From the IMG/VR virus record IMGVR_UViG_3300029922_000057, positions 1-64,000 of that record: a DNA stretch of 64,000 nt; one strand, 5' to 3'. The translations under genes were made by a program, and so were the position numbers. The stretch's first letter is position 1. Every line of letters begins with the position of its first letter. This DNA comes from a virus. This document shows, in pieces, positions 32,701 through 55,949 of this stretch. Under the pieces are notes generated by a model. That model did no database searches. It saw only the letters and a program-made list of their open reading frames with translations, and was not told the origin of the DNA.

Positions 32701-32776
32701 GCTCCGGTAGATTAGCGGCTAAATCATCTGCCCTACAAGCAGACTATCGTGGGTTCGAGTCCCACTTGGAGCACCA
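32701..32776 (+). tRNA. tRNA-Val(TAC)
   Basis: Acceptor GCTCCGG/TTGGAGC, D arm GATT/AATC, anticodon arm TCTGC-CCTACAA-GCAGA, T arm GTGGG-TTCGAGT-CCCAC, CCA encoded. Position 33 is C instead of the usual U. Reads GUA. Confidence 0.85.
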
Positions 32777-32806
32777 AGTTTTGGTTTTTGCAGTATTGAA
32801 GTATAT

Positions 32807-32881
32807 GCGGCTGTAGTTCAGTGGTAGAACGCTTCCTTGCCAAGGAAGAGGTCGTGGGTTCGAATCCCACCAGCCGCTCCA
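32807..32881 (+). tRNA. tRNA-Gly(GCC)
   Basis: Acceptor GCGGCTG/CAGCCGC, anticodon arm CTTCC-TTGCCAA-GGAAG, T arm GTGGG-TTCGAAT-CCCAC, CCA encoded. Reads GGC/GGU. Confidence 0.93.
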
Positions 32882-33018
32882 AGCTCTGGAGCAAGACTCC
32901 AGTCCACAAGACTGGGTAAGTTTACTTCGAGGGGCGCGGGTGGTGCCCCGGCGTGAGCCAAAGCCACCAAGATTTTTAATCCCGGCCAGCCGGTGATTAC
33001 ATGATGTTTGACAATATT

Positions 33019-33097
33019 GGGCCGTGGAAATGCTAGGAGTGTTTATCTGTCTTGCACACAGAATATCAGCAGAGTTCAAATCTCTGACGGTCCACCA
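33019..33097 (+). tRNA. tRNA-Ala(TGC)
   Basis: Acceptor GGGCCGT/ACGGTCC, anticodon arm TCTGT-CTTGCAC-ACAGA, T arm CAGAG-TTCAAAT-CTCTG, CCA encoded. Variable loop is 7 nt. Reads GCA. Confidence 0.85.
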
Positions 33098-33166
33098 AAT
33101 TTGAAACCGAGGTCGAACAATTACCTCACCGTTTCTCTCGATGGTTTGTACCACAAGGAGAAAACG

Positions 33167-33511
33167 ATGGAAGTATTTGTAGATAGGTTCGGCAGCGTTG
33201 AGGATGTATGCGACCAGTTCAATATTGGTCAGGATGAATTGAAGGATGCGTTGGTCTACGCAGCGGTGTATAGCTACGAGGACTATTCGGGTTCGGCATT
33301 CGTTCTGTTCGAGAAGGACGGGAAGCTGTTCTCAGTAAGTGGCGGTCACTGCTCTTGCTACGGCTTGGAGGGTCAGTGGACGCCTGAGGAAGAGAACTGG
33401 GAGACCATTTTGCACTGGTTGGATAAGGGTGAGATGTTCAATGAGTTCTCGGACGAGATGCGTGCTTACCTTCGTAGCGTGGCAGTACAGCGCACGTCGG
33501 CAGTACAGTAA
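33167..33511 (+). CDS. Conserved phage hypothetical protein (GHCSCYGLE type)
   Basis: 114 residues from ATG 33167, with AAGGAG upstream. Contains SGGHCSCYGLEGQWTPEE, a segment that recurs in phage proteins of unknown function, and an acidic helical remainder. It is embedded between tRNA-Ala(TGC) and the RNase P RNA. Confidence 0.75.
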   Translation: MEVFVDRFGSVEDVCDQFNIGQDELKDALVYAAVYSYEDYSGSAFVLFEKDGKLFSVSGGHCSCYGLEGQWTPEEENWETILHWLDKGEMFNEFSDEMRAYLRSVAVQRTSAVQ

Positions 33512-33538
33512 CAGCTTCGGCCTCGGTTTCATTAAGTA

Positions 33539-33934
33539 TGCACTAGACTGGACAATCGCGACGTGGCGCAATACCACTTCGAGGAAGTTCGGAGCACCAC
33601 AGAGCAGCGTATAGGGTAACACCCTAGCACACTTGTTCGGGGACGTAGCGTAAGGGGACGCAGCTATACGTCTGGTTGATTTCCACCAACCCTATGGGAA
33701 CAACCCGTCCGATGTTGAGTGTGACGATTAGAGCAACAGAGACGAGCCGATTAAATTCGGGTGAAACGGGCAATCTCTACGCGGTGCAACCTCAAATAGG
33801 CCGACAGGTACTGCTCGTACCGTTATGAATCGGCGGGTTGGGGGCTAGAGCCAGACGGTAACGGCTGGCCGAGACGAATGATTGTACAGGAGGGGTAACC
33901 CTCTGGACAGAACTCCGGCTATAAGTCTAGTGCA
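33539..33934 (+). ncRNA. rnpB: RNase P RNA (bacterial type), catalytic subunit
   Basis: About 396 nt closed by an 11-bp P1 helix, TGCACTAGACT (33539) with AGTCTAGTGCA (33924). Conserved blocks appear in order: GAGGAAGTTCGGAGC (CR-I), CACAGAGCAG and AGGGTAACACCCT, GCAACAGAGACGAGCCG, GGGTGAAACGGG, CAAATAGGCC, a P15-like GCGGGTTGGGGGCTAGAGCC, GGCCGAGACGAATGATTG, and ACAGAACTCCGGCTATAA (CR-V). CR-I TCGGAG and CR-V CTCCGG differ from the bacterial consensus in a matching way, so P4 pairing is kept. It would cut 5' leaders from pre-tRNAs, here most simply the phage array, using host RnpA. Confidence 0.93.
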
Positions 33935-34160
33935 GAGTTTTAAGCGGGGTGACACCTACCGAGTCCTGCGGACTAAAGTGGTGTGGCACGGCGGAGAGGC
34001 GTCGAGAAATTGAGGAGATATGTGGAGGTACTATTTCTGGTGGCGGAGTTGGTCTTTTGGAAAGACCTTCCGATTGAACAGTTCTCTTATGTGGGGATGT
34101 AGCTCATATGAGAGCTACCGATTCGGACCACTGGAGGTACGAAAATATCTCTGATTCAAA
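33935..34160 (+). other. Structured spacer between rnpB and tRNA-Gly
   Basis: 226 bases without an ORF. One strong hairpin GGTCT-TTTGGAA-AGACC near 34070 looks like a tRNA-Pro anticodon arm but has no T arm or acceptor. A D-arm-like GCTCATATGAGAGC follows. Probably eroded tRNA sequence. Confidence 0.35.
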
Positions 34161-34234
34161 GCGGGTATAGCCAAGCGGTAAGGCAACAGGCTTCCACCCT
34201 GTCACCGTCAGTTCAAATCTGACTATCCGCTCCA
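34161..34234 (+). tRNA. tRNA-Gly(TCC)
   Basis: Acceptor GCGGGTA/TATCCGC, D arm GCC/GGC, anticodon arm ACAGG-CTTCCAC-CCTGT, T arm GTCAG-TTCAAAT-CTGAC, CCA encoded. Reads GGA/GGG. Confidence 0.93.
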
Positions 34235-34252
34235 AGTTTTGTTGGTGTTATA

Positions 34253-34328
34253 GGCGATGTGGCGAAGTGGTTAACGCGGCGGTCTGCAAAACCGTTATGC
34301 ATGGGTTCGAATCCCATCATCGCCTCCA
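34253..34328 (+). tRNA. tRNA-Cys(GCA)
   Basis: Acceptor GGCGATG/CATCGCC, anticodon arm GCGGT-CTGCAAA-ACCGT, T arm ATGGG-TTCGAAT-CCCAT, CCA encoded. Reads UGC/UGU. Confidence 0.93.
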
Positions 34329-34344
34329 ATTTGAAAGGAGAGCG

Positions 34345-34554
34345 ATGAAGATTAACTTCGATGCCGACATGAGAAGCGTTCATACCCGACTGGCTGGTGA
34401 AGAGAACAACATTCGCCTCAGTCCTGAGCAGTGGCAAGAGTTTGTTGCAATGTTGGAAAGGCCAACACAGCCGAATGAGAATTTACGTCTGCTGTTGACG
34501 GAGCCCTCGGTATTAGAAAGGATAAATATGCTGAACAGTGGCAAAAGGTTTTGA
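34345..34554 (+). CDS. TacA/DUF1778 antitoxin-tail-like protein
   Basis: 69 residues from ATG 34345, with AAAGGAG upstream. The central segment, LSPEQWQEFVAMLERPTQPN then ENLRLLLTEPSVLE, follows the pattern at the C-terminus of DUF1778 antitoxins (LSxExxxxFxxxLxxPPxPNxxLxxLL), the part of TacA that wraps its GNAT toxin. The DNA-binding ribbon-helix-helix that normally precedes it is absent, and no toxin gene is adjacent. It lies between tRNA-Cys and tRNA-Ala. Inferred role: free-standing neutraliser of a host TacT-like toxin. Confidence 0.5.
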   Translation: MKINFDADMRSVHTRLAGEENNIRLSPEQWQEFVAMLERPTQPNENLRLLLTEPSVLERINMLNSGKRF

Positions 34555-34562
34555 TGTTTTAG

Positions 34563-34637
34563 GGGCCTGTAACTCAGTGGGAGAGTGCTTCCATGGCATG
34601 GAAGAAGTCGAGGGTTCAATCCCCTCTAGGTCCACCA
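34563..34637 (+). tRNA. tRNA-Ala(GGC)
   Basis: Acceptor GGGCCTG/TAGGTCC, D arm ACTC/GAGT, anticodon arm CTTCC-ATGGCAT-GGAAG, T arm GAGGG-TTCAATC-CCCTC, CCA encoded. Reads GCC/GCU. Confidence 0.9.
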
Positions 34638-34649
34638 AATTTTAGTAGA

Positions 34650-34830
34650 GGATGTGATGCCGGAGAGTTCCCTTCGGGTATGAACAATCCAGCCAAATGG
34701 CTCTACTGAACGACACTGTTGTGGTAGCTCAAATCGTATGGGTGTGTGCAGTTGAACAGCACACTCGTAATTAGAGAGATGAGGTACCCGGTCGTTAAAT
34801 GACAGCGTAAGCGGCACGACACGTCCACCA
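34650..34830 (+). ncRNA. Structured 181-nt unit with tRNA-like acceptor end
   Basis: GGATGTG (34650) can pair all seven positions with CACGTCC (34820), followed by A and CCA as in a tRNA acceptor. Inside are AGCC-AAAT-GGCT, GTGTGC-AGTTGAACA-GCACAC and GTC-GTTAAAT-GAC hairpins, but no TTCRA T loop or anticodon arm. Could be a tRNA with a large insertion, two fused units, or a new RNA. Confidence 0.4.
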
Positions 34831-34831
34831 A

Positions 34832-34907
34832 GGGGTTGTAGCATAGCGTCTAATGCAGCGGCTTGTCGAGCCGTCTATCGTGGGTTAGAGTCCCATCAGC
34901 CCCGCCA
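34832..34907 (+). tRNA. tRNA-Asp(GTC), copy 1
   Basis: Acceptor GGGGTTG/CAGCCCC, D stem GCAT/ATGC, anticodon arm GCGGC-TTGTCGA-GCCGT, CCA encoded. T loop is TTAGAGT: the invariant C56 is A, and the D loop lacks the usual GG, so tertiary contacts are altered. Confidence 0.8.
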
Positions 34908-35001
34908 AGTTTCAAAGGGTAGCACCTAACGTCGTACCGCACAAAGGCGCACGGGCTTAGGGCTTGCAGTGAGAACTAAAAGCTGCGGAACACACCCTTG
35001 A
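34908..35001 (+). other. Spacer with weak long-range pairing
   Basis: No ORF. TCAAAGGGT near 34912 can pair with ACCCTTGA just before the next tRNA, enclosing 70 bases of uncertain structure. Possibly a decayed tRNA unit. Confidence 0.25.
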
Positions 35002-35076
35002 GGAGACGTACCATAATGGCAATGGGCTTCCCTGTCACGGAAGAATATACGAGTTCAACCCTCGCCGTCTCCGCCA
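35002..35076 (+). tRNA. tRNA-Asp(GTC), copy 2
   Basis: Acceptor GGAGACG/CGTCTCC, D stem CCAT/ATGG, anticodon arm CTTCC-CTGTCAC-GGAAG, T arm CGAG-TTCAACC-CTCG, CCA encoded. Sequence unlike copies 1 and 3 outside the anticodon. Confidence 0.82.
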
Positions 35077-35086
35077 GTTTGAAGTT

Positions 35087-35163
35087 GGGGATGTAGTTCA
35101 GTTGGTTAGAACGCTACCCTGTCACGGTAGAGGTCGCGGGTTCGAGCCCCGTCGTCCCCGCCA
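35087..35163 (+). tRNA. tRNA-Asp(GTC), copy 3
   Basis: Acceptor GGGGATG/CGTCCCC, anticodon arm CTACC-CTGTCAC-GGTAG, T arm GCGGG-TTCGAGC-CCCGT, CCA encoded. The most canonical of the three Asp genes. Confidence 0.94.
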
Positions 35164-35237
35164 ACTTTAAAGTGTGGTTCCCTCAGGTTTAGGGATTAAA
35201 TGCAGGACGGACGCGCTTGCAGCCGCTAACTAGTTTT

Positions 35238-35310
35238 GCGCCTTTGGCTCAGCGGCTAGAGCACTTCCTTGACATGGAAGGGACCGTAGGTTCGATTCCT
35301 ACAAGGCGCA
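35238..35310 (+). tRNA. tRNA-Val(GAC)
   Basis: Acceptor GCGCCTT/AAGGCGC, D arm GCTC/GAGC, anticodon arm CTTCC-TTGACAT-GGAAG, T arm GTAGG-TTCGATT-CCTAC. Discriminator A is followed by CAT, so CCA is not encoded. Reads GUC/GUU. Confidence 0.92.
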
Positions 35311-35324
35311 CATTCGTGACTATC

Positions 35325-35343
35325 AACCTCTTTAGTAGAGGTT
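35325..35343 (+). promoter_or_regulatory. Hairpin before GIY-YIG gene
   Basis: AACCTCT-TTAGT-AGAGGTT, 7 bp. Shares the AGTAGAGG core with the hairpins at 4584 and 37486. Confidence 0.4.
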
Positions 35344-35376
35344 AAGTCCTCAGAAACCTGAGAGGCTGATAGGTTC

Positions 35377-35985
35377 ATGATATTTTACACAGTGTATCGA
35401 ACACAGAATTTGGTGAACGGAAAGTATTACTTCGGCGTCCACAAAACCAAGAACCCGTACGACGGGTACCTTGGGTCAGGTAAGGTTCTGAAGGCGGCGA
35501 TTCGTAAGCACGGTGAGCAGTCGTTCATAAAGAACGTGTGCTTCATCTTCGACAACTCAGGGGAGGCATTTGCTAAAGAATACGAACTGATTGAAACGTA
35601 TCGAGCCGACCCTTTGTGCTACAACCTGAGACAAGGTGGGAGTGGTGGCTTCGACTGGATAAATCAGCAACCCAACCAAGGGTGGAGGGTTCGAGCGGCC
35701 AATAGGACTAACAGCGCGGAGCGTTGGAAGACAGACGCTAACTATCGGGATATGATTCGCAACAATTTCAATCGTAGTGGCGCTCGTGGGTCATCGGAGA
35801 TGGCAAAGCAAAGAGGATTATCAGCGATAGGCTCCGCCGCCGCAAGGTTGAGAAATATAAAAGCGGTTGAACGAATGAAAGCGCAGGAGTTGTTTGAACA
35901 AGGAATTTGTAAAGCCCAAATCGCAGCTTTACTCGGGGTTGCAAAGAGTTCGGTAAGTGTTTGGGTTAAGGGTTTGTCGGGCTGA
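35377..35985 (+). CDS. GIY-YIG homing endonuclease (Seg-like)
   Basis: 202 residues. The N-terminal catalytic module has TVYRTQNLVNGKYYFGVHKT, then DGYLGSGKVLKAAIRKHG and an acidic KEYELIE, the order seen in phage Seg-type GIY-YIG nucleases. The C-terminal 50 residues form a helix-turn-helix (ICKAQIAALLGVAKSSVSVW) for DNA binding. Free-standing between tRNA genes, a common site for such mobile genes. Its stop overlaps the next tRNA-like unit by one base. Confidence 0.85.
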   Translation: MIFYTVYRTQNLVNGKYYFGVHKTKNPYDGYLGSGKVLKAAIRKHGEQSFIKNVCFIFDNSGEAFAKEYELIETYRADPLCYNLRQGGSGGFDWINQQPNQGWRVRAANRTNSAERWKTDANYRDMIRNNFNRSGARGSSEMAKQRGLSAIGSAAARLRNIKAVERMKAQELFEQGICKAQIAALLGVAKSSVSVWVKGLSG

Positions 35986-36054
35986 GGCTCGTCGTCTAAT
36001 GGTAGGACGCCCCTATCGAGGGGAAATGAGAGTTCGAATCTCTCCGTGTCTACA
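35985..36054 (+). tRNA. Degenerate tRNA-like unit after the endonuclease
   Basis: Acceptor AGGCTCG/CGTGTCT (one T-T mismatch), D arm GTC/GAC and a perfect T arm GAGAG-TTCGAAT-CTCTC. The anticodon arm is only CCCC-TATCGA-GGGG, three bases shorter than standard, so no anticodon can be assigned. No CCA. Confidence 0.5.
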
Positions 36055-36136
36055 CGACAGTCTGACAGATGCAGGGAGATAGAGGGGATTTGCTCTCAAC
36101 GTGTGAGATGCGTAGAACCTCTCCTCCCGAAAGTTT

Positions 36137-36215
36137 GGGGCTAGGGAATGCCGGGGGTGTTCACCTCATTCGCAATGAGGAATCCAGTGGGGTTCGAGTC
36201 CCCATAGCTCCACCA
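36137..36215 (+). tRNA. tRNA-Ala(CGC)
   Basis: Acceptor GGGGCTA/TAGCTCC, D arm GAAT/GTTC, anticodon arm CCTCA-TTCGCAA-TGAGG, T arm TGGGG-TTCGAGT-CCCCA,CCA encoded. Reads GCG. Confidence 0.9.
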
Positions 36216-36309
36216 AGTTAAGTCCGGAACTCGGCTTAAGGAATTGAAATGTGGGCGTCCATAGTGGTAACGCCGAGCGATGGGGTGCCAAGTCCCCTGC
36301 GTCCACCAA
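36216..36309 (+). other. Decayed tRNA unit
   Basis: GGGCGTC near 36253 can pair six of seven with TGCGTCC before an ACCA, and TGGGG-TGCCAAG-TCCCC looks like a T arm with a mutated loop. The intervening 50 bases are too short for a full tRNA. Ends in the CCAAGTTT spacer used after intact tRNAs. Confidence 0.4.
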
Positions 36310-36315
36310 GTTTGT

Positions 36316-36419
36316 GCAATGGTAGCTCAGTTGGTAGAGCATTCCACGTCTCATGGTTAAGGGCCTATATCGCTGGCGGATTGTTATGGACGCCGTGGGT
36401 TCGAATCCCACCTGTTGCA
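36316..36419 (+). tRNA. tRNA-like gene with about 35-nt insertion in the anticodon arm
   Basis: Acceptor GCAATGG/CTGTTGC, canonical D arm GCTCAGTTGGTAGAGC and T arm GTGGG-TTCGAAT-CCCAC. Between TTCCA (36351) and TGGAC (36387), which would form the anticodon stem, lie about 40 bases instead of 7. The anticodon cannot be read without knowing whether these are removed. No CCA encoded. Candidate for an intron-bearing or disrupted tRNA. Confidence 0.55.
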
Positions 36420-36436
36420 TGAATAGTTAGGAAGAG

Positions 36437-36613
36437 ATGAAGTTCAACGCGGTTTGCGAAAACGATGTTTGTGTGGGTGAATGTATTTGCAGTCCGTGGT
36501 ACGCGGGGTTGGAAGAGCCCGACACATACAAGCGGTGCTTGAGTTGTAAGGCACCACTCAGCGATGAAGACGACCCTGACCTTTGTGAGAAGTGTGGATT
36601 GAATGAAGTATAG
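36437..36613 (+). CDS. Zinc-ribbon microprotein (58 aa)
   Basis: From ATG 36437, with GGAAGAG upstream. Cysteine-rich: VCENDVCVGECIC, then CLSCKAPL and CEKCG, a double zinc-ribbon pattern. Ends overlapping the next ORF by 11 bases. Function unknown. Confidence 0.6.
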   Translation: MKFNAVCENDVCVGECICSPWYAGLEEPDTYKRCLSCKAPLSDEDDPDLCEKCGLNEV

Positions 36614-36785
36614 TGTACCTGAGTTCACGTTAGTAAGCTGTCCGACTGTCAGCATCGCCGACATCAAGGCAAAGCAATGGCCGCTCAAGGTCACGGACAC
36701 AGTAACAGGTAAGGTCTCACAGGTTGGAGACCGCGAGATTGAAGCTATACAACTCTTGGTTGAGTTGGTGGATGAGGGTGAATGA
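36603..36785 (+). CDS. Small hypothetical protein (60 aa)
   Basis: MKYSVPEFTLVSCPTVSIAD..., mixed alpha/beta, acidic C-terminus. Coupled to its neighbours by overlaps at both ends. Confidence 0.5.
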   Translation: MKYSVPEFTLVSCPTVSIADIKAKQWPLKVTDTVTGKVSQVGDREIEAIQLLVELVDEGE

Positions 36786-36994
36786 CTTTTATTGACGCAG
36801 TAATTGCAATTTCGAAAGACCCGACTTTATCACTATGTGAGAACGATGGTGAGAGAAGCGGGAAGTACAGTATCTGCGTGTATAAGGGTGATGAATGCAT
36901 AGGTAAACTACGGTGGCCGAGAACGACAGAAACTGGCAAAGTGATTGCCATCGCCACCGTTGATGAAGCGGTAGAAGAGGTTTTGGGTGTGTAG
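36782..36994 (+). CDS. Small hypothetical protein (70 aa)
   Basis: MTFIDAVIAISKDPTLSLCE..., start overlaps the previous stop (ATGA). The final codons (VLGV and stop) coincide with the 5' strand of a tRNA-acceptor remnant at 36985. Confidence 0.5.
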   Translation: MTFIDAVIAISKDPTLSLCENDGERSGKYSICVYKGDECIGKLRWPRTTETGKVIAIATVDEAVEEVLGV

Positions 36995-37017
36995 CTCGAC
37001 TCCTGTCACATCCACCA
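36985..37017 (+). pseudogene. Mini-tRNA remnant (acceptor stem only)
   Basis: GGGTGTG pairs seven bases with CACATCC, followed by A and CCA, but only 15 bases lie between them: TAGCTC of a D arm joined to CGACTCCTGT of a T arm. An internal deletion of about 45 bases is the simplest reading. Confidence 0.6.
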
Positions 37018-37300
37018 AGTTTCACAGTGCATAGTGTGATTACAGAACACGGTGTATCTTAGTGCGTAAGTGGCAAGTCGCTTTGTCACGCTGTGAAGGC
37101 TGCGGTGATTTATGGGCTCTGACCCATACCCATGGTACCGAAAGGAAGAGTAGGGGTCACCAAGATAGCTCTAGCGAAAGTTGCTTCCCCAACCATGACC
37201 TTGGCGGGTGGCTAGTAAAGTGAAGACGGACGCAGTTAATCGAGTTTATGCCGAGTAAGGGAAATCCCGTGGCGGATAACCACGCCCCCTCGGCTCCAGT
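37018..37300 (+). other. Spacer with tRNA-like debris
   Basis: No ORF. GGTGA/TCACC (37090-37165) before an ACCAAG and GCCGAG/CTCGGC with TCCA (37250-37298), enclosing GGGAAATCCC and GTGG-CGGATAA-CCAC hairpins, look like further shortened tRNA units. Confidence 0.35.
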
Positions 37301-37301
37301 T

Positions 37302-37387
37302 TGACGGGTTACTTTAGTGGCCTAAAAACTCGCTTAGTAGCTTTATGCGAAGGGCGGGAACGAAGGTTCGAATCCTTCACTCGTCAC
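37302..37387 (+). tRNA. tRNA-like unit with abnormal anticodon arm
   Basis: Acceptor TGACGGG/CTCGTCA pairs fully and the T arm GAAGG-TTCGAAT-CCTTC is perfect. The anticodon region TCGC...GCGA has a 13-base loop and the D arm TTTA/TAAA is weak. Anticodon unassigned, no CCA. Confidence 0.45.
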
Positions 37388-37400
37388 TAGTTTGTAGTTT

Positions 37401-37475
37401 GGCCCTATCTTCTAGCGGTTAGGAAAGCAGGTTCTCAACCTGACAACCGGGGTTCGACACCCCGTAGGGCTACCA
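37401..37475 (+). tRNA. tRNA-Glu(CTC)
   Basis: Acceptor GGCCCTA/TAGGGCT, anticodon arm GCAGG-TTCTCAA-CCTGA, T arm CGGGG-TTCGACA-CCCCG, CCA encoded. Acceptor and D arm are nearly identical to tRNA-Glu(TTC) at 37909. Reads GAG. Confidence 0.9.
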
Positions 37476-37485
37476 AATATGAGAA

Positions 37486-37507
37486 GCATAGTAGAGGTCT
37501 ACTATGC
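37486..37507 (+). promoter_or_regulatory. Palindrome covering ribosome site and start codon
   Basis: GCATAGTAGA and TCTACTATGC are complementary around a GG centre. The palindrome includes the AGAGG ribosome site and the ATG of the 37504 gene, so folding would block initiation. Confidence 0.5.
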
Positions 37508-37653
37508 AAGCACCATGGACTCCCGAGTATGGTTTCACCGGGCACGTTGATGTTGGAACTTTTTTCGTTTTGATTGGTATTTTTGTTTTGATTGCGGTAT
37601 TGAAAGTGTGGGATGCTTACCACCCTGAGGATCACGATGGTGATGGCTTATGA
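37504..37653 (+). CDS. Single-pass membrane microprotein (49 aa)
   Basis: MQAPWTPEYGFTGHVDVG, then a transmembrane helix TFFVLIGIFVLIAVLKVW and an acidic tail ending HPEDHDGDGL. AGAGG precedes the ATG but lies in a palindrome. Possible envelope-targeted effector; unrecognised. Confidence 0.55.
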   Translation: MQAPWTPEYGFTGHVDVGTFFVLIGIFVLIAVLKVWDAYHPEDHDGDGL

Positions 37654-37903
37654 ACTATCGGAGTTCTGCAAGTTGGAAGGTATACCAGAGTGCCCACACT
37701 TCGATGATATTGGCTTCACTGTAGTTTTCGAGACGGGGTCGGGACAGAGTTTCAAGCACGAGGCAAAGCACCTTTGTGCGGCCTGTGTGCCAGCAGAAGC
37801 AAGAGTTTTTAATGCGGAGTGGCCGAGGCGAATCAGGCGCGACCCTGCAAAGGTTGAGACACGAGTTAAATCCTCGTCTCCGCGTCCAAGTAATCGGTGG
37901 TAG
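37643..37903 (+). CDS. Hypothetical protein running into tRNA-Cys
   Basis: 86 residues from ATG 37643 (MAYELSEFCKLEGIPECPHF...). Two Cys/His pairs (PECPH, LCAACV) suggest a zinc site in residues 15-55. The last 30 residues are encoded by the tRNA-Cys gene at 37813-37888 and look non-native (Arg/Pro/Ser-rich), so the original C-terminus was probably lost. Confidence 0.45.
   Translation: MAYELSEFCKLEGIPECPHFDDIGFTVVFETGSGQSFKHEAKHLCAACVPAEARVFNAEWPRRIRRDPAKVETRVKSSSPRPSNRW
37813..37888 (+). tRNA. tRNA-Cys(GCA), second copy
   Basis: Acceptor TGCGGAG/CTCCGCG, D arm GCC/GGC, anticodon arm CGACC-CTGCAAA-GGTTG, T arm ACGAG-TTAAATC-CTCGT, CCA encoded. T loop has A instead of C56, as in tRNA-Asp copy 1. 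Overlaps the 3' end of the 37643 ORF. Confidence 0.8.
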
Positions 37904-37908
37904 TTTAT

Positions 37909-37983
37909 GGCCCTATCTTCTAACGGCTAGGAAGGCACCCTTTCAAGGTGAGAATGAGGGTTCGACTCCCTCTAGGGCTACCA
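37909..37983 (+). tRNA. tRNA-Glu(TTC), copy 1
   Basis: Acceptor GGCCCTA/TAGGGCT, anticodon arm CACC-CTTTCAA-GGTG, T arm GAGGG-TTCGACT-CCCTC, CCA encoded. Reads GAA. Confidence 0.92.
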
Positions 37984-38097
37984 AGTTTCAAGGTCGTCTA
38001 ACATGGCAGAGCAATGACGGGTAAATGTTGCTCCGCTGTCGATATACTGAGCAGCATGTAACTGGGTTCCGTCAGCACCAAGCTAGTAATAGCCTCT
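37984..38097 (+). other. Spacer with decayed tRNA-like sequence
   Basis: No ORF. GAGCAA...TTGCTC and GCTG...CAGC hairpins precede GTCAGCACCAAGC, again ending like a tRNA 3' end plus the array's spacer. Confidence 0.3.
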
Positions 38098-38172
38098 GAT
38101 GTCGGAGTGACAAGCGGTAAGGACACCGCCCGTTCGTGGCGGAGATGGGGGTTCGATGCCCCTCCTTGAGAA
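38098..38172 (+). pseudogene. Decayed tRNA-Glu-like unit
   Basis: A perfect anticodon stem CCGCC/GGCGG holds loop CGTTCGT (TTC in anticodon position but G at 33). T arm GGGGG-TTCGATG-CCCCT. The acceptor pairs only four of seven and no CCA follows. Confidence 0.45.
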
Positions 38173-38180
38173 TAAGTTTC

Positions 38181-38256
38181 GCCCTCGTAACTCAGCGGTA
38201 CGAGTGCTTCCTTCACACGGAAGAAGTCGTAGGTTCGATTCCTACCGAGGGCACCA
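38181..38256 (+). tRNA. tRNA-Val(CAC)
   Basis: Acceptor GCCCTCG/CGAGGGC, anticodon arm CTTCC-TTCACAC-GGAAG, T arm GTAGG-TTCGATT-CCTAC, CCA encoded. Reads GUG. Confidence 0.92.
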
Positions 38257-38262
38257 AGCTAC

Positions 38263-38377
38263 GCCGGGTGGAAGAATTGGTAGATTCGCTGGAGGCATCC
38301 ATAGGCATCACAAAGTATGCCCGTTTATGCGAACGGGTTTTGTGAGTTTGTAGGCTTCGATACCTACCCCGGCACCA
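38263..38377 (+). tRNA. Oversized tRNA-like gene with extra hairpins
   Basis: 115 nt. Acceptor GCCGGG/CCCGGC plus A and CCA, a Leu-like D arm GAAGAATTGGTAGATTC and T arm GTAGG...CCTAC with an 8-base loop. Between them lie three hairpins: TGGA-GGCA-TCCA, GGCAT-CACAAAGT-ATGCC and CCGTT-TATGCG-AACGG. No normal 7-base anticodon loop is visible. Could be an insertion-bearing tRNA. Confidence 0.5.
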
Positions 38378-38431
38378 AGTTATGAGTTTCGTGTATCGAG
38401 GAGTCAACGTAAGGCACCCGGATTTAAGTTT

Positions 38432-38507
38432 GTCGCCGCCGTCTATCGGTCTGGACCTCTGACTTTCAATCAGATGATGGTGGGTTCGATTCCCATCGGC
38501 GACACCA
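38432..38507 (+). tRNA. tRNA-Glu(TTC), copy 2
   Basis: Acceptor GTCGCCG/CGGCGAC, D arm GTC/GAC, anticodon arm TCTGA-CTTTCAA-TCAGA, T arm GTGGG-TTCGATT-CCCAT, CCA encoded. Different acceptor from copy 1. Confidence 0.9.
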
Positions 38508-47496: not shown

Positions 47497-48126
47497 ATGA
47501 AGAAGTATTTCGTCCTACTCCTTGCAGGGGTTCTTTCTTTGGCCGGTGCCCTATCTGCACAAACAAATGGTCTCGTAGTTTCGACCGCAACCGAGGCTGT
47601 TGGTATCCATTACAACAACCAATGGGGGGCCGGTAATGTAACTACGATGCTGTTGGACGTGTTTGACTGGGGAGCACAAAAAGGGAACAGCCTTTCTGCC
47701 GGTGAATATACCGTGCTTGCTTCCACGGGTGGATTCAACAGCTATCTTGGTGGGGTCCATGTTATACCTGATGTTTCCAGTATCGTGAAGCATACAAATA
47801 TCCCTTCTGACCAGTTTGGGGTGTTTGCGGATTTTGCTGCTGGTAACTCCACGTTCAGCAACACTACACCTAACCAGTTTACCTACTTGATTGGTGGCGG
47901 GACTCAGTATCGAGTGACCCCCAGCATCTCATGGTCAACGGTGGATTTCCGTTGGGGGCATCTTGGTTCTCAGGATTTCTACACAGCATCCACAGGTTTG
48001 GTGTATTACTTCAACCCAACAGTAAGTCAGAATCTGGCGGTTAAGAGAATGTTGGTACGGGCGACTGTCAGAAAGAACTATAAGGTCGCAGAAGACGCCG
48101 CCGCTGCCGCTGTGAAGTCGAATTAA
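47497..48126 (+). CDS. Exported beta-rich protein with signal peptide
   Basis: 209 residues. A clear Sec signal peptide, MKKYFVLLLAGVLSLAGALS, with an AxSAQ-like cleavage near residue 21, precedes a Gly/Ser/Thr-rich beta domain (TYLIGGGTQYRVTPSISWS, STGLVYYFNP) resembling small outer-membrane barrels. No cysteine pairs. It would act in the host envelope, for example in receptor masking, which is inference. Followed by a strong terminator. Confidence 0.6.
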   Translation: MKKYFVLLLAGVLSLAGALSAQTNGLVVSTATEAVGIHYNNQWGAGNVTTMLLDVFDWGAQKGNSLSAGEYTVLASTGGFNSYLGGVHVIPDVSSIVKHTNIPSDQFGVFADFAAGNSTFSNTTPNQFTYLIGGGTQYRVTPSISWSTVDFRWGHLGSQDFYTASTGLVYYFNPTVSQNLAVKRMLVRATVRKNYKVAEDAAAAAVKSN

Positions 48127-50878: not shown

Positions 50879-50906
50879 GAGCCCCCTACCAAGGGGGCTT
50901 TATTTA
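50879..50906 (+). terminator. Rho-independent terminator
   Basis: AGCCCCCT-ACCA-AGGGGGCT stem followed by TTATTTAT. Confidence 0.85.
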
Positions 50907-50977
50907 TGCCATCAGGTTCCAATTGTAATTAAAACGGTGTATTAGCAATGAGACGACTGAAATGTTGGAGAATGAGT

Positions 50978-51727
50978 ATGCTTGTTTTGGGGTTAGATTT
51001 TGAAACCCTTGGATTGGACCCAAAGGTTCATGCCATCTGCGAGGTTGGTGCTCAGCTTTGGGACACCGACAACCACCGTGCCGTTTTGTCCATGGGATAC
51101 CTTGTGCAAGTCCCCGAGGGCGCTCCCTTTGAAGAAGAGGCGATGAAGGCCACCAAGCTGCCTTTGGAGTTAATTGCCAAGTATGGTAAGGAATCAACCA
51201 AGGCACTTCGTCAGCTTCTTTACATGTATGAACAGGCCGATGTTATTGTGGCTCATAATGGAAATACATGCGACCGGCCCTTCCTGCTTGCATGGATAAA
51301 ATCCTGTGGCTTAGATTTCGATGAAGATAAGTTCTGGATTGATACTCTGACCGACATTGAGTATCCCAACAAGAGATGGAGTCGTCAACTTACCTGTCTC
51401 GCGGCGTATCATGGGTTCCTCAATCCATTCCCTCATCAGGCTCTCGCCGATGTTATGACCACGCTCACCATACTTGATAAGTACCCGATTGAGGAAGTCC
51501 TCGCTTATGCTAAGACCCCCACAATAGGTATCCGCCTGACCATTCCATTTGAAAAGAATCAATGGGGTAAGGACAACGGGTATTTCTGGTACAAGGATAA
51601 GGAAAACAGTAGCATCAAGTTCTGGATGAAGAAGATAAAGGCAAACCGGCTTGAAGAGGAAGAAGCTCTGGTTAAGGAAGCTGGGTTCTCTATAACTCAA
51701 ATCGAGATTCCTGCTGGGGTTTACTAA
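50978..51727 (+). CDS. DEDDh 3'-5' exonuclease (DnaQ-like)
   Basis: 249 residues. ATG 50978 has GGAG 7 bases upstream; an earlier in-frame ATG at 50948 lacks one. Exo I LGLDFETLGLDP (D, E), Exo II AHNGNTCDRPFL (D), Exo III HQALADVMTT (H...D). Family role is proofreading or exonucleolytic trimming. The C-terminal 80 residues are extra and basic. Confidence 0.82.
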   Translation: MLVLGLDFETLGLDPKVHAICEVGAQLWDTDNHRAVLSMGYLVQVPEGAPFEEEAMKATKLPLELIAKYGKESTKALRQLLYMYEQADVIVAHNGNTCDRPFLLAWIKSCGLDFDEDKFWIDTLTDIEYPNKRWSRQLTCLAAYHGFLNPFPHQALADVMTTLTILDKYPIEEVLAYAKTPTIGIRLTIPFEKNQWGKDNGYFWYKDKENSSIKFWMKKIKANRLEEEEALVKEAGFSITQIEIPAGVY

Positions 51728-51805: not shown

Positions 51806-52558
51806 ATGAGAACCCTGACTATCGCTGTCTCTGTGCTCGGAACCTTGTTGTTGGGACAACTTACGTACGCCCAATCTCCGACACCTAAACCATCCACGTT
51901 AGACTACGTTAAAAACACCCTATACCCAGCCACTGTGCTGCTTTTCCATCAAGAAGACGACGGCAGCATGAGGTTTGCCTGTACAGCGACCTCAATTGGT
52001 TACAACCCCAAGCAGGAAGCTTACATATTTGCCACGGCGGCTCATTGCATCAATGATAAACATCAACCCTTTATATCTCTGGATGAGGTTGGAACAGACA
52101 AGGTGTTCGTTCGTTCCTTGAGTTCTAGTTGCGGTTCAGAGGAAATGGGGGATGACGTGTGCTTGCTTTTTGTAAGAACAAAGACGCACTTCGAAATTGT
52201 AGATTTAGGGGATGATCCACTTAGTGGAGAACCCATTGTCAGTGTGGAGTCCCCGGCAGGTATGGGTAAACAGATACTCCATGGATACGTCGCTTTGAGT
52301 AAACTTGACCGCACCATTCACGATAAAGAAAGTAAGCTAGATTGGACAGGAGATGTTATCCTTCAACTTCCCGGTGTCCTCGGGGGCTCTTCAGGCGCTT
52401 CTGTTATATGTGAGTCATCTCAGAAAATATGTGCCTTTACAGTAGGTGTGTATGCGGGTGATTTAGGGCAGATGCAGGTAGCCGTTCCAGTTAGTCGGTT
52501 AAAGAAACTACTTGATGATACTGCGAACAAGAAAGAGCCAAAAGCAAGTATTAAGTAG
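51806..52558 (+). CDS. Secreted trypsin-like serine protease
   Basis: 250 residues. Signal peptide MRTLTIAVSVLGTLLLGQLT with cleavage near YAQS. Catalytic triad by motif: His in FATAAHCIND, Asp in MGDDVCLLFV, Ser in GGSSGASV, as in the V8/trypsin-like family. Conserved cysteines near His and Ser. Expected in the periplasm or outside the cell. Unusual in a phage; possible roles are envelope remodelling or attack on surface defence proteins (inference). Confidence 0.75.
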   Translation: MRTLTIAVSVLGTLLLGQLTYAQSPTPKPSTLDYVKNTLYPATVLLFHQEDDGSMRFACTATSIGYNPKQEAYIFATAAHCINDKHQPFISLDEVGTDKVFVRSLSSSCGSEEMGDDVCLLFVRTKTHFEIVDLGDDPLSGEPIVSVESPAGMGKQILHGYVALSKLDRTIHDKESKLDWTGDVILQLPGVLGGSSGASVICESSQKICAFTVGVYAGDLGQMQVAVPVSRLKKLLDDTANKKEPKASIK

Positions 52559-52559
52559 T

Positions 52560-53441
52560 GTGACAACAAAAGCTAAAAATGCACCACCAATCACCCTCCC
52601 CGACCCATTACCAGAAGTACAACAATGGTTAGTGCTCGGCCTTGATCCATCCATGAGTCGTACCGGGTTTGCTTTGATGCAAGTTAAGCCAAGCGCAGAC
52701 GGTACGACTCATGCTGTTTGGAGGCTGGCTGGCTCCGTCAAGCCTGAGTCCTCCGCTGATCCTATCTGGCTTCGAGGGAAGATGATGTCTCTCTACCTTA
52801 GAGACCTAATTGACAAAGCTTCAACAGACATCATGGGTAATGACCCCACAGCGTGGAATCAGGGGGTTGTTGAAAAAAACGGTGTCAGCTATGTTAATAG
52901 AACGCCAGCTTTAGGGCTCATCATCAGCATGGAGTACCCAACGCCCATGAACGACTTTCTAGTGGCGTTGAACCGCATCCTGCACTTGGTGTTTTTCGAG
53001 ACAAATCTGTGGGCGAGGTTCACTACAGTTAGAGTATTAACCACTAATGCAGCCACGCTCCGGTCTTTAATGAACCTTACTAAAACCGGCGCGAAGAACA
53101 AAGCTGAGAACATCAATAAGGCGTATGAATACATTGACAAGGCAACATACCCAAAATTGGATACTGACGCTTGCGATGCTGTTCTTCTCTCTATGATGGC
53201 TCGGCATACAACCTCAATTCTTTTAGGTCATCCTGAGGAGGTACCAGAGAAGTTTTTGGTGTCTCTATGTAACGCCAATCAGGAGATGAAGGGTAAGGGC
53301 AGGAACGCCAAAATCATCACTAAAGGACTCCTACATAGGCGAGAGTATTTCTACTCGTATACACGAAAAACCTACACGCTCATCGTTAACGACGCATCGC
53401 GTCATACTAACAAATTGGAGCGAATCGGGTACTCGATTTAA
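52560..53441 (+). CDS. RuvC-like Holliday-junction resolvase
   Basis: 293 residues from GTG 52560 (start uncertain). RNase H-fold acidic residues: VLGLDPSMSRTGFAL (first Asp), ISMEYP (Glu), and LDTDACDAVLLS (paired Asp) match the RuvC order. Cleaves four-way junctions or branched DNA during recombination and packaging. Just upstream of the RecA-like gene. The C-terminal 60 residues are basic. Confidence 0.7.
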   Translation: MTTKAKNAPPITLPDPLPEVQQWLVLGLDPSMSRTGFALMQVKPSADGTTHAVWRLAGSVKPESSADPIWLRGKMMSLYLRDLIDKASTDIMGNDPTAWNQGVVEKNGVSYVNRTPALGLIISMEYPTPMNDFLVALNRILHLVFFETNLWARFTTVRVLTTNAATLRSLMNLTKTGAKNKAENINKAYEYIDKATYPKLDTDACDAVLLSMMARHTTSILLGHPEEVPEKFLVSLCNANQEMKGKGRNAKIITKGLLHRREYFYSYTRKTYTLIVNDASRHTNKLERIGYSI

Positions 53442-53454
53442 CCGGAGGAAACAA

Positions 53455-54720
53455 ATGCCGCCCAAAAAGCAAGTATCATCTACGTCTGCGCCCAGCGGAC
53501 ACGCCCGTGACTGGACACCTGAACAACGCCGTGCTGCCTTCTCCATAGGTCGCAAGGACACCGCAGCAAACTATCAAATTATCGAATCAGATTTTCAAGA
53601 GGCTCTCGTACCCTATAACCACATCACCTTCGACCGGGTGCTTGGCCTGAAGGGGATGGCTCACCACGGAACTGTTACGCAGATTCATGGTGATGAAGGC
53701 GCTGGCAAGTCAACCACCACAATCTCAATGGTCGCTGAATATCAGAAGCAGACGAGTGAGCCGGTTGGGTTTTTTGCTTATGAGCCAACCACAACTCCTG
53801 ACTACCTCCGCAAGCTCGGCGTTGACATGGACTTCTGCTTCCTGATGTACCCCAGCAGTGTTCAGACTGCCGTGTGGGAGCACATCCGCCTCATGAAGAT
53901 GGGTGTTAGGCTGTTCGTCAATGACTCCATCCCTTTCATGGATACCAAGATTGAAGAGAAGGACATCAAGAGCGGTAAGTTCGCCAAGGCCAACTACGGC
54001 GGAAATGCCAAGGCAATGAGTCTTTTCTATAAAACTCTCCGCCCTTACTTGCAGGAATACGATGCCGCGCTTCTCATGGTCAACCAGACACGCGACCGTA
54101 TCGACAATAGCCGTGAGGCCCAGTATGCGACCAAGTATGACTACGTGAATCGCATCTACACACTGCCCGGTGGTCGTATGTGCCGCTTTATGCCTTCGGT
54201 TATGTTGGAACTCACTTTGGAGAAGGCCATGGCTCCAATGGAAATGGCGAAGATGGAAACGGATGACCTTTTCATCGTTGACCTTGCTGCCCCCGGAACT
54301 AAGCCTGATCCAACCATCAACAAGGTGCGTGTCCGTACTTTGAAAAACAAGGTTACAGGTGCTGGATTCCGTAAGGGCAACATTTACATCCGACCCGGCA
54401 AGGGTATTGATGAGAGTGTCAACATTCTTGAACTCTCTCGTCAATTCGGTTACATCACAAACTCGGGAGCGCGTTGGTATGTTGGTAAGTCGAAGGAAGA
54501 CTCTTTCGCTCAATACGCCAACAAGGCGGAAGCCCTCGAAGCCCTCGTTGTGAAGCGTGACCCGGATGTCATTGCCAAGCTGCGGTCACTGGTTTATGAA
54601 TCGGTGGATGACAAGCTGGATATGTTTGTTGCTGAGGTCTCTTCTGAGGAGATGGACTTCCTTGATGAGAGCAAGCAAACAATCAGCTTCAACCCGGAAG
54701 AAGATGATGAGTTGGCCTGA
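53455..54720 (+). CDS. RecA/UvsX-like recombinase
   Basis: 421 residues, CGGAGG upstream. Walker A IHGDEGAGKSTTT near residue 80, Walker B VRLFVNDSIPF, and a DNA-loop region ending DRIDNSREAQYATKYD before a C-terminal acidic tail (NPEEDDELA). Core layout fits the RecA/UvsX family: strand invasion for recombination-dependent replication. Stop overlaps the next ATG. Confidence 0.8.
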   Translation: MPPKKQVSSTSAPSGHARDWTPEQRRAAFSIGRKDTAANYQIIESDFQEALVPYNHITFDRVLGLKGMAHHGTVTQIHGDEGAGKSTTTISMVAEYQKQTSEPVGFFAYEPTTTPDYLRKLGVDMDFCFLMYPSSVQTAVWEHIRLMKMGVRLFVNDSIPFMDTKIEEKDIKSGKFAKANYGGNAKAMSLFYKTLRPYLQEYDAALLMVNQTRDRIDNSREAQYATKYDYVNRIYTLPGGRMCRFMPSVMLELTLEKAMAPMEMAKMETDDLFIVDLAAPGTKPDPTINKVRVRTLKNKVTGAGFRKGNIYIRPGKGIDESVNILELSRQFGYITNSGARWYVGKSKEDSFAQYANKAEALEALVVKRDPDVIAKLRSLVYESVDDKLDMFVAEVSSEEMDFLDESKQTISFNPEEDDELA

Positions 54721-55949
54721 TGCGACTTAGTGTCAAGAATTTTCAACCGTGGGCGGATGCGACTTTGAACATTGAGGGGCTGACTGTCTTGGTCGGCCCC
54801 TCAAACAGGGGCAAGTCTTCTTTGTTTCGTGCCCTCAAGGGGGTTCTTCGTAATGACATCCCTGAGGATTTTATACGGAACAATCAGGAAGAACCACTTG
54901 AAATAGAACTTGAGGTTGACGGGCATAACATCAAGGCGTCCCGTAAACGAAAGGGTTCGACTAAATACATCCTCGATGGAAAAACCTACAGTAGTCTTGG
55001 GGGTAAGGTACCGGAGGAGATTGAAAAGCTGAAGTTCGGTGAGATGAAGATAGGGGACTATAGCATTGATCCTATTTTTGCTCATCAAAACAAAGCCCAA
55101 TTTCTGATCGACTCTGACCGTTGGAAACCACAAGAAATAAACGCCGTCCTTGGGGCCTTCTCCAGCACGGAAAAGTTGGACGCCGGGAAGAAGGAAGCCA
55201 ACCTCCGTATCACTCAACGGAAGAGTGAGGCTAACACACTGGCCTCTGAGATTCGTTTAGCTGAGGAGCGAAGCGCCTCCTTACTCGAAATCACAGGCAG
55301 TGCGACAGTTATTGCAGACGCGGTTCTTGCCTTGGAAAGGGACATCAGAGCCCGTGAGGTGCTTGTAGGGCAGTTGGGGTCGGTTCTTTACCATCAGGCG
55401 CGTCTACAGCCTCTACAGACGATCCTGAATACCCTTACCTTACCCAACCTAACTAAAGCGGATACTTTACTTCAGGTCGCCGAAAATCTGGAGACCGCCA
55501 GCCAATCCTTATCGGTATCTCGATTCCTCCGTAAGCTTGAAGCTGCTATTGATGCCACGGCTGCTTCATGGGCAGAAGTGTTGATTATCTACAAGAGGGA
55601 TAAAGGAGTGTGTGAACTGCTCACTCTTCTGGATAAGTTCGGTTTCCAGCGCACAGAATACTCCGACCGACTGACTTCGATCATTGAACAAACTGACTCA
55701 CAATTGACCGAAGTAAAAACCTTGAATGGCAGTATTTCATATTTAGCGGTCGCCATTGAAGCTTATCAGGCTCATCAGGAACTTGCTGATCAACTCAAGG
55801 ATTACGATTCTCAGCTTGAAATCGCGGAAGCCGAGTTAGATACTTTACGACAGGCTTTCGCAGTGGAAGAAGCGGAGAGAAAGCTACCAAAGGTTAAGCC
55901 GGGTACTTGTCCTAAATGTGGCAAGGGATTGGAGCATGTATGTCAGTAA
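54720..55949 (+). CDS. Half-Rad50/SbcC ATPase (N-lobe, coiled coil, zinc hook)
   Basis: 409 residues. The N-lobe has MRLSVKNFQPWADATLNIEG and Walker A GPSNRGKSS, with a Q-loop near FAHQNKAQFL. Coiled coil spans about 150-390 (EIRLAEERSASLLEI, DQLKDYDSQLEIAEAELDTL). It ends with CPKCGKG, a zinc-hook CxxC. The returning coil and C-lobe with signature motif and Walker B are absent. ATP hydrolysis would require another lobe or a divergent dimer. Its likely partner is the Mre11-like protein at 58930. Confidence 0.7.
   Translation: MRLSVKNFQPWADATLNIEGLTVLVGPSNRGKSSLFRALKGVLRNDIPEDFIRNNQEEPLEIELEVDGHNIKASRKRKGSTKYILDGKTYSSLGGKVPEEIEKLKFGEMKIGDYSIDPIFAHQNKAQFLIDSDRWKPQEINAVLGAFSSTEKLDAGKKEANLRITQRKSEANTLASEIRLAEERSASLLEITGSATVIADAVLALERDIRAREVLVGQLGSVLYHQARLQPLQTILNTLTLPNLTKADTLLQVAENLETASQSLSVSRFLRKLEAAIDATAASWAEVLIIYKRDKGVCELLTLLDKFGFQRTEYSDRLTSIIEQTDSQLTEVKTLNGSISYLAVAIEAYQAHQELADQLKDYDSQLEIAEAELDTLRQAFAVEEAERKLPKVKPGTCPKCGKGLEHVCQ

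Follow-up and report, generated by a model that had tools for sequence, protein, structure and literature searches.

The phage proteases known so far mostly serve capsid maturation or act within the cytoplasm. In a survey covering 224 jumbo phages, ClpP, SprT-like and ArdC-like peptidases are named as candidates for action on the host, and virion processing is discussed as another role of such peptidases; its main text contains none of the words trypsin, secreted, periplasm or signal peptide (PMC7824862). Individual phages do carry trypsin-fold proteases that appear to be exported. Thus, p036 of Rhizobium phage 16-3 (YP_002117594.1) has an N-terminus resembling an export signal, and its record is annotated ‘typically periplasmic’. 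SUAG_00063 of Sulfitobacter phage pCB2047-A (AGH30789.1) is short, is assigned the trypsin fold and carries a Cys next to its catalytic His; its start resembles an export signal only from an internal Met, not from the annotated start. In PHROG 9683 (‘protease’), and in two phage contigs considered below (L111 and L143), a Trypsin_2 domain lies behind a membrane segment. The HtrA family (DegS, DegP, HtrA1; S1C) also has an envelope location. Nothing on the protein described here, or on exported jumbo-phage proteases, appeared among the matches listed in a search of titles and abstract openings, the coverage of which excludes many subscription journals.

The gene described here belongs to a large soil phage and lies in a window of 64,000 bases (the whole stretch of DNA that was analysed), corresponding to bases 1–64000 of a linear 67,074-base virus record that is itself probably a fragment. 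Genes in the window include those for a lytic tail protein, DnaB- and DnaC-like proteins, a ribonucleotide reductase, UvsX and 18 tRNAs. The original prediction was of a phage-encoded exported serine protease, with a full trypsin-like triad behind a signal peptide, and the sequence backs it. An open reading frame on the plus strand (51806..52558; ATG start, TAG stop) specifies a predicted serine protease of 250 aa with a chymotrypsin-like (PA clan) domain. The triad, in the order H-D-S, consists of H80 (FATAAHC; codon 52043..52045), D117 (DDVCLLF; codon 52154..52156) and S196 (GGSSGA; codon 52391..52393), all on the plus strand and all invariant in four aligned homologues. A further 54 residues follow S196. 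The protein begins with MRTLTIAVSVLGTLLLGQLTYAQSP, which resembles a Sec signal peptide. The predicted signal is 22 aa long (51806..51871, plus strand), and the likely cut, placed by reading, is between TYA and QSP. This N-terminus, MRTLTIAVSVLGTLLLGQLTYA followed by Q, was accepted by a crude export rule of our own, which combines charge, a hydrophobic core and either a cut site or a lipobox. With alternative starts allowed, the rule accepts 5 of the 65 gene-like ORFs in the window, the protease included. By eye, only the protease and ORF 47497–48126 have convincing export signals among these five.

Whereas p036 shares its predicted fold and export-signal-like start with the window protease, it is 22% identical over the alignment, has other gene surroundings and lacks a cysteine beside the catalytic His. 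SUAG_00063 has that cysteine but is 24% identical, and is located near an endolysin gene rather than among recombination genes. PHROG 9683, L111 and L143 are likewise found in other gene surroundings, and PHROG 9683 is absent from the matches (E ≤ 1) of the window protein and of its homologues L125 and L133. Such a gene can fairly be called unusual in a phage, as originally suggested, but p036 and SUAG_00063 mean that it is not unique. Exported-looking phage trypsin-fold proteases were already known; what is new here is a recurring slot for predicted exported cargo.

The order of His, Asp and Ser, together with a GxSG-type serine motif, is that expected of a PA-clan peptidase. In the two homologues L125 and L133 the first Gly of the motif is replaced by Ala. 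Against Pfam Trypsin_2 (PF13365) the window protein scored 27.1 bits (E 8.1e-6), 0.5 bit short of the gathering cut-off of 27.6, whereas L125 (42.2 bits) and L133 (33.4 bits) exceeded it. The nearest solved chains by profile were catalytic domains of HtrA1, DegS and the DegP type (best E 5.6e-4). Trypsin_2 was the only Pfam family to appear at E ≤ 10. Thus, no PDZ domain was found and the window protease is not an HtrA member; it is also under half as long as the HtrA-sized matches in acidobacteria described below. There was no NCBIfam match. PHROGs gave nothing meaningful, with one holin match at E 0.58, and the L133 protease weakly matched PHROG 11383, of unknown function (E 0.0012). We take weak PADLOC matches to LmuA (E 0.0098) and PDC-M35A (E 0.075) as fold-level similarity or chance. 

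A structure model made from the single sequence (pLDDT 37.8) was set aside. An AlphaFold model made from three sequences was weak (mean pLDDT 50.6, pTM 0.56), with the first barrel at ~70 and the second mostly below 50, including the region of S196. With this weak model, the top 36 Foldseek matches in the PDB were serine proteases of the PA clan (best E 2.4e-4). The best VIA match was DegS without its PDZ domain (Z 8.3, rmsd 3.3, 105 residues aligned); as Z values of 7–8 are common for unrelated pairs, we do not base the fold on this match. The modelled structure agrees with the sequence and adds little to it.

Trypsin proper, an S1 protease specific for Arg and Lys, carries an Asp six residues ahead of its catalytic Ser, at position 189. 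In the alignment, where this position was counted without a reliable structure, all four homologues have Gly rather than Asp. Hence, the window protease is unlikely to cut after Lys or Arg in the manner of trypsin.

Relatives of the protease were hard to reach directly. As sole query, the window protein identified no close relative in the viral_contigs or plasmids databases, and in the phages database returned a single Listeria record (E 0.6–0.8). In genome_contigs there were 17 pattern matches, none of them a relative. With the UvsX protein of the window as query, viral_contigs likewise yielded no relative. A ribonucleotide reductase search produced 15 loci; a single-protein query found no protease in their records, which is an uninformative test. 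Trypsin_2 was present in 2 of the 15 records, in a different, signal-less protease. These two genes (L017:1393–2454, 353 aa, and L018) belong to large phages of 296 kb and 476 kb.

A search with a RuvC alignment located 15 related loci, and the protease homologues were reached only via the neighbouring RuvC gene. The L125 homologue is 38.6% identical to the window protease over 228 aa (E 4e-40). Through it L133 was reached, in a record of 332,300 bases; these two proteases are 51% identical. A profile built from the three members was run over 27 records, many of them fragments. It recovered those three and a fourth, L139; the other 23 records had no family member at E ≤ 0.01, many being fragments. 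L139 is in a 463,033-base phage that also contains locus L124, far from the RuvC gene. Rescanning with the three-member alignment added nobody to the family, a motif scan with alignment A2 gave 82 pattern matches without a relative, and the L133 protease as query had no match in the phages database.

The four proteins are 33–51% identical in pairs. None of H80, D117, S196, C59, C81, C202 and C209 varies among them. The crude export rule accepts each of the four N-termini. By reading, these take different forms: the window and L133 proteins have a predicted cleavable signal, L125 has a lipobox (LSAC) and L139 a putative membrane anchor. Between L125 and L133, identity is 51% for the protease, 84% for the exonuclease, 78% for UvsX and 40% for RuvC. 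The protease, as judged from these comparisons, appears to diverge fast. RuvC was probably replaced between L125/L132 (L132 shows more of the L125 contig) and its close relative L133. The 40% identity of RuvC thus indicates that the region recombines, and that the shared position of the protease is partly a matter of mosaicism.

The protease gene is embedded in a set of recombination genes on the plus strand. Upstream is a DnaQ-like exonuclease gene (50948..51727; PHROG 192, E 1.3e-27; Pfam RNase_T, E 7.7e-11). Downstream, one base after the protease stop codon, is a RuvC-like resolvase gene (52560..53441; PHROG 159, E 4.2e-5), which has no Pfam match and was recognised by its homologues; its GTG start was picked by alignment. 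Genes for a UvsX-like recombinase (53455..54720; PHROG 97, E 6.4e-38) and an SbcC-like exonuclease ATPase (54720..55949; profile matches) follow. A terminator-like hairpin on the same strand (50879..50900), between a nudix gene and the exonuclease gene, may bound the transcription unit on its upstream side; such hairpins are a weak signal here, with 5 sites in the window against 4.5 in shuffles. A promoter scan carried no information (3 sites against 5.0 in shuffles). The tail genes of the window are on the opposite strand.

G011 and G002 share with the window the order helicase, gene 45484, gene 46652, exported protein, HU, SSB-like protein, exonuclease, RuvC, UvsX, SbcC, and both are without the protease. 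In G002 there is no gene between exonuclease and RuvC. The best phage match of the window UvsX was that of Tunturi_5 (42% identity, 272 bits); the other 11 matches listed from 209 records each scored 86 bits or less. Tunturi_5, a jumbo phage with a genome of 308,711 bases, infects the acidobacterium Tunturiibacter psychrotolerans; its host and morphology are described in PMC11924767, and the words protease and peptidase do not occur in the main text of that paper. Tunturi_5 retains SSB, RuvC and UvsX, and the protease is absent there. We infer that the window phage also has an acidobacterial host. The conserved phage gene order excludes a fragment of host DNA, which had been named as the finding that would overturn the prediction. 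Homologues with matching gene neighbours in two further phages mean that the gene is not a chance finding. The absence of the protease from G011, G002 and Tunturi_5 could have reflected a recent insertion in the window phage alone; this idea was dropped as L125 and L133 share the position.

We refer to the position between the exonuclease and RuvC genes as the slot. Both borders were visible in ten distinct phages: the window, L117, L118–L121 (counted as one, since the coordinates and scores of these four records coincide), L122, L123, L124, L125/L132, L129, L130 and L133. Loci without an exonuclease match (L126–L128, L131 and Tunturi_5) were left out of the count. The protease occupies the slot in three phages (window, L125/L132 and L133) and is absent from it in the other seven. 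Hence, these phages can dispense with it or replace it. The slot is empty in L129 and L130. In L117, the nearest relative of the window phage (UvsX 77% identical), the slot holds an unrelated, exported-looking protein of 142 aa.

In the soil jumbo phages L122, L124 and L132 the slot encodes a predicted exported protein of ~493 aa, in which an HExxH motif is invariant; the next gene specifies a lipoprotein of ~550 aa. The module was mapped at L132:2327–5454, L122:1421–4557, L124:1505–4644 and L170:1997–4752. The HExxH proteins are 62–78% identical to the L132 copy. The pair also occurs in Thermus phage YS40_Isch, in other gene surroundings and with both HExxH and lipobox present. For the proteins from L122, L124, L132 and the Thermus phage there was no significant Pfam match and no solved relative; the motif suggests a putative metalloprotease. 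The pair resembles the window protease in being an exported putative protease in the same slot, but it is unrelated in sequence and motif. The two occur together in the slot of L132. In the L124 phage the HExxH pair is in the slot and the serine protease (L139) is elsewhere.

The recurrence of export signals was measured with the crude rule. With chosen starts, 6 of the 10 phages have a slot product that passes (window, L117, L122, L124, L125/L132 and L133), and the products of L118 (84 aa) and L123 (243 aa) fail. When alternative starts are allowed, products pass in 7 of the 10 phages, L123 included. Counting plus-strand ORFs of at least 80 aa, 8 of 13 passed in the slot, compared with 5 of 112 outside it, which were scored in the same way as a control. 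Fisher's test gave P 1.2e-6, a value to be used as a guide only as the comparison is post hoc and the ORFs are not independent. In L122 and L132, slightly longer antisense ORFs displaced the HExxH ORFs, so the count within the slot is lowered. Judged by these predictions, the cargo of the slot turns over and the export signal recurs.

All five outside ORFs that passed are the exported gene upstream of HU, one per phage, and this place appears to be a second exported position in the gene set. In the window it is occupied by ORF 47497–48126, a second exported-looking protein of 209 aa with no Pfam match. Exported-looking proteins are found at the corresponding place in L118, L129, L130 and L133. 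The L133 copy passes Pfam OMP_b-brl (E 3.4e-7), and the G002 copy is below the cut-off. Possibly, this place is a slot for outer-membrane barrels.

A GIY-YIG endonuclease gene is found on the minus strand inside the exonuclease–RuvC gap of L132 (L132:7001–7915; Pfam E 1e-9). It is conjectural that this gene drives the exchange of cargo. HNH-like genes were noticed by eye at L132:737–1480, L132:5497–5970 and L117:3096–3743.

Our preferred explanation, to which we assign a probability of roughly 0.6, is that the window gene encodes a Sec-exported protease that is made with the recombination genes and acts in the host envelope. The one-base gap to RuvC, and the location of the tail genes on the other strand, indicate that the protease is probably produced with the exonuclease, RuvC, UvsX and SbcC proteins, in the replication phase and before the virion genes are expressed. 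The infected cell would then export the trypsin-fold enzyme by Sec. Removal of the signal peptide would be accompanied by oxidation of the conserved cysteines, presumably paired as C59–C81 and C202–C209. The mature enzyme would cut host envelope proteins, in the periplasm or at the envelope; receptors, host surface proteins and secreted defences were the candidate targets originally suggested. Export is very likely, and catalytic activity is just as strongly expected. The most plausible effect of such remodelling would be to keep out competing phages or to disable sensing at the level of the envelope during replication. Removal of an envelope sensor or receptor, or competition between phages, would fit the fast divergence, the patchy presence and the exchange with a different exported protein that resembles a protease. 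As a purpose, superinfection exclusion or anti-sensing is possible, with the balance somewhat against it. Slightly short of even odds, and hence tentative, is a broader proposal: that jumbo phages, probably of soil Acidobacteriota, keep a dedicated slot in the recombination set, from which exported trypsin-fold and HExxH/lipoprotein proteases rework the envelope during replication. If a slot for exported proteases does recur, the periplasm would be a site of phage–host and phage–phage conflict, which is directly testable. Reading the content between exonuclease and RuvC genes would be a simple way to find such proteins.

Acidobacterial genomes bear on where the gene came from, and on what the host already has. 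Across 398 genomes from a single acidobacterial family, the window protein alone gave 3 matches at E ≤ 0.01, phage contig L111 among them. With the profile, at E ≤ 1e-5, there were 37 matches; 36 of these are in HtrA-sized open frames (552–632 aa) and one is phage contig L143. Recent capture from the host was rejected on this distribution, with the limit that at most 6 candidates were scored per genome and a closer relative could escape.

The main rival to export for conflict is that the enzyme is a phage-owned, DegS/DegP-like quality-control protease. It would clear misfolded envelope proteins, its clients including the phage's own beta-barrel-like exported proteins, and so the cell would survive until burst. 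The profile similarity to HtrA1, DegS and DegP-type domains, the best VIA match to DegS, and the exported beta-barrel-like proteins encoded nearby in some of these phages all agree with such a role. However, no PDZ domain was found and only 54 residues follow the catalytic Ser. Furthermore, an HtrA-sized open-frame match was obtained in 36 of the 398 acidobacterial genomes, so hosts own such enzymes themselves, and fast divergence with patchy presence fits conflict better than housekeeping. Hence, we regard quality control as unlikely. Patchy presence could also reflect a catalytically dead or neutral passenger gene, as could the Pfam score slightly below cut-off, but the triad and four cysteines are retained in homologues that are only 33–39% identical to the window protein. 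This makes a passenger very improbable.

A role in the virion or in lysis, for instance as a maturation protease or lysis helper, is suggested by the membrane-anchored trypsin-fold proteases next to a portal gene (L111) or a terminase-like gene (L143/L168) in other phage contigs, and by the closeness of the Sulfitobacter gene to an endolysin gene. Conversely, the window gene is among replication genes, with the tail genes on the opposite strand, and an export signal is ill-suited to capsid maturation; we consider this role very doubtful. The last alternative is an auxiliary gene for nutrition in soil, the product of which digests proteins outside the cell for amino acids. Any exported protease could act so, and nothing specific favours it. 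The placement within a recombination gene set, the lipobox or membrane anchor of two homologues and the single small catalytic domain all count against nutrition, which is the least likely of the roles considered.

The membrane-anchored trypsin-fold protease gene of L111 (L111:1348–2112), a phage contig among the acidobacterial genomes, adjoins a portal gene identified by Pfam; as a query, its product found no relative in the viral_contigs or phages databases. The corresponding type of gene in L143 (L143:1276–2079; L168:7674–8483) adjoins terminase-like and portal genes assigned by reading, the terminase-like neighbour in L143 having no Pfam match.

Two further features were observed. In the window, 17 of the 18 tRNA genes are clustered at 32701–38507, with repeated specificities (Asp ×3, Ala ×4, Glu ×3, Val ×3). 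Finally, in L011, L012, L014, L015 and L016 the ribonucleotide reductase match is split in two by an insert of ~1 kb near residues 270–320, which may be an intron, an intein or a homing gene.
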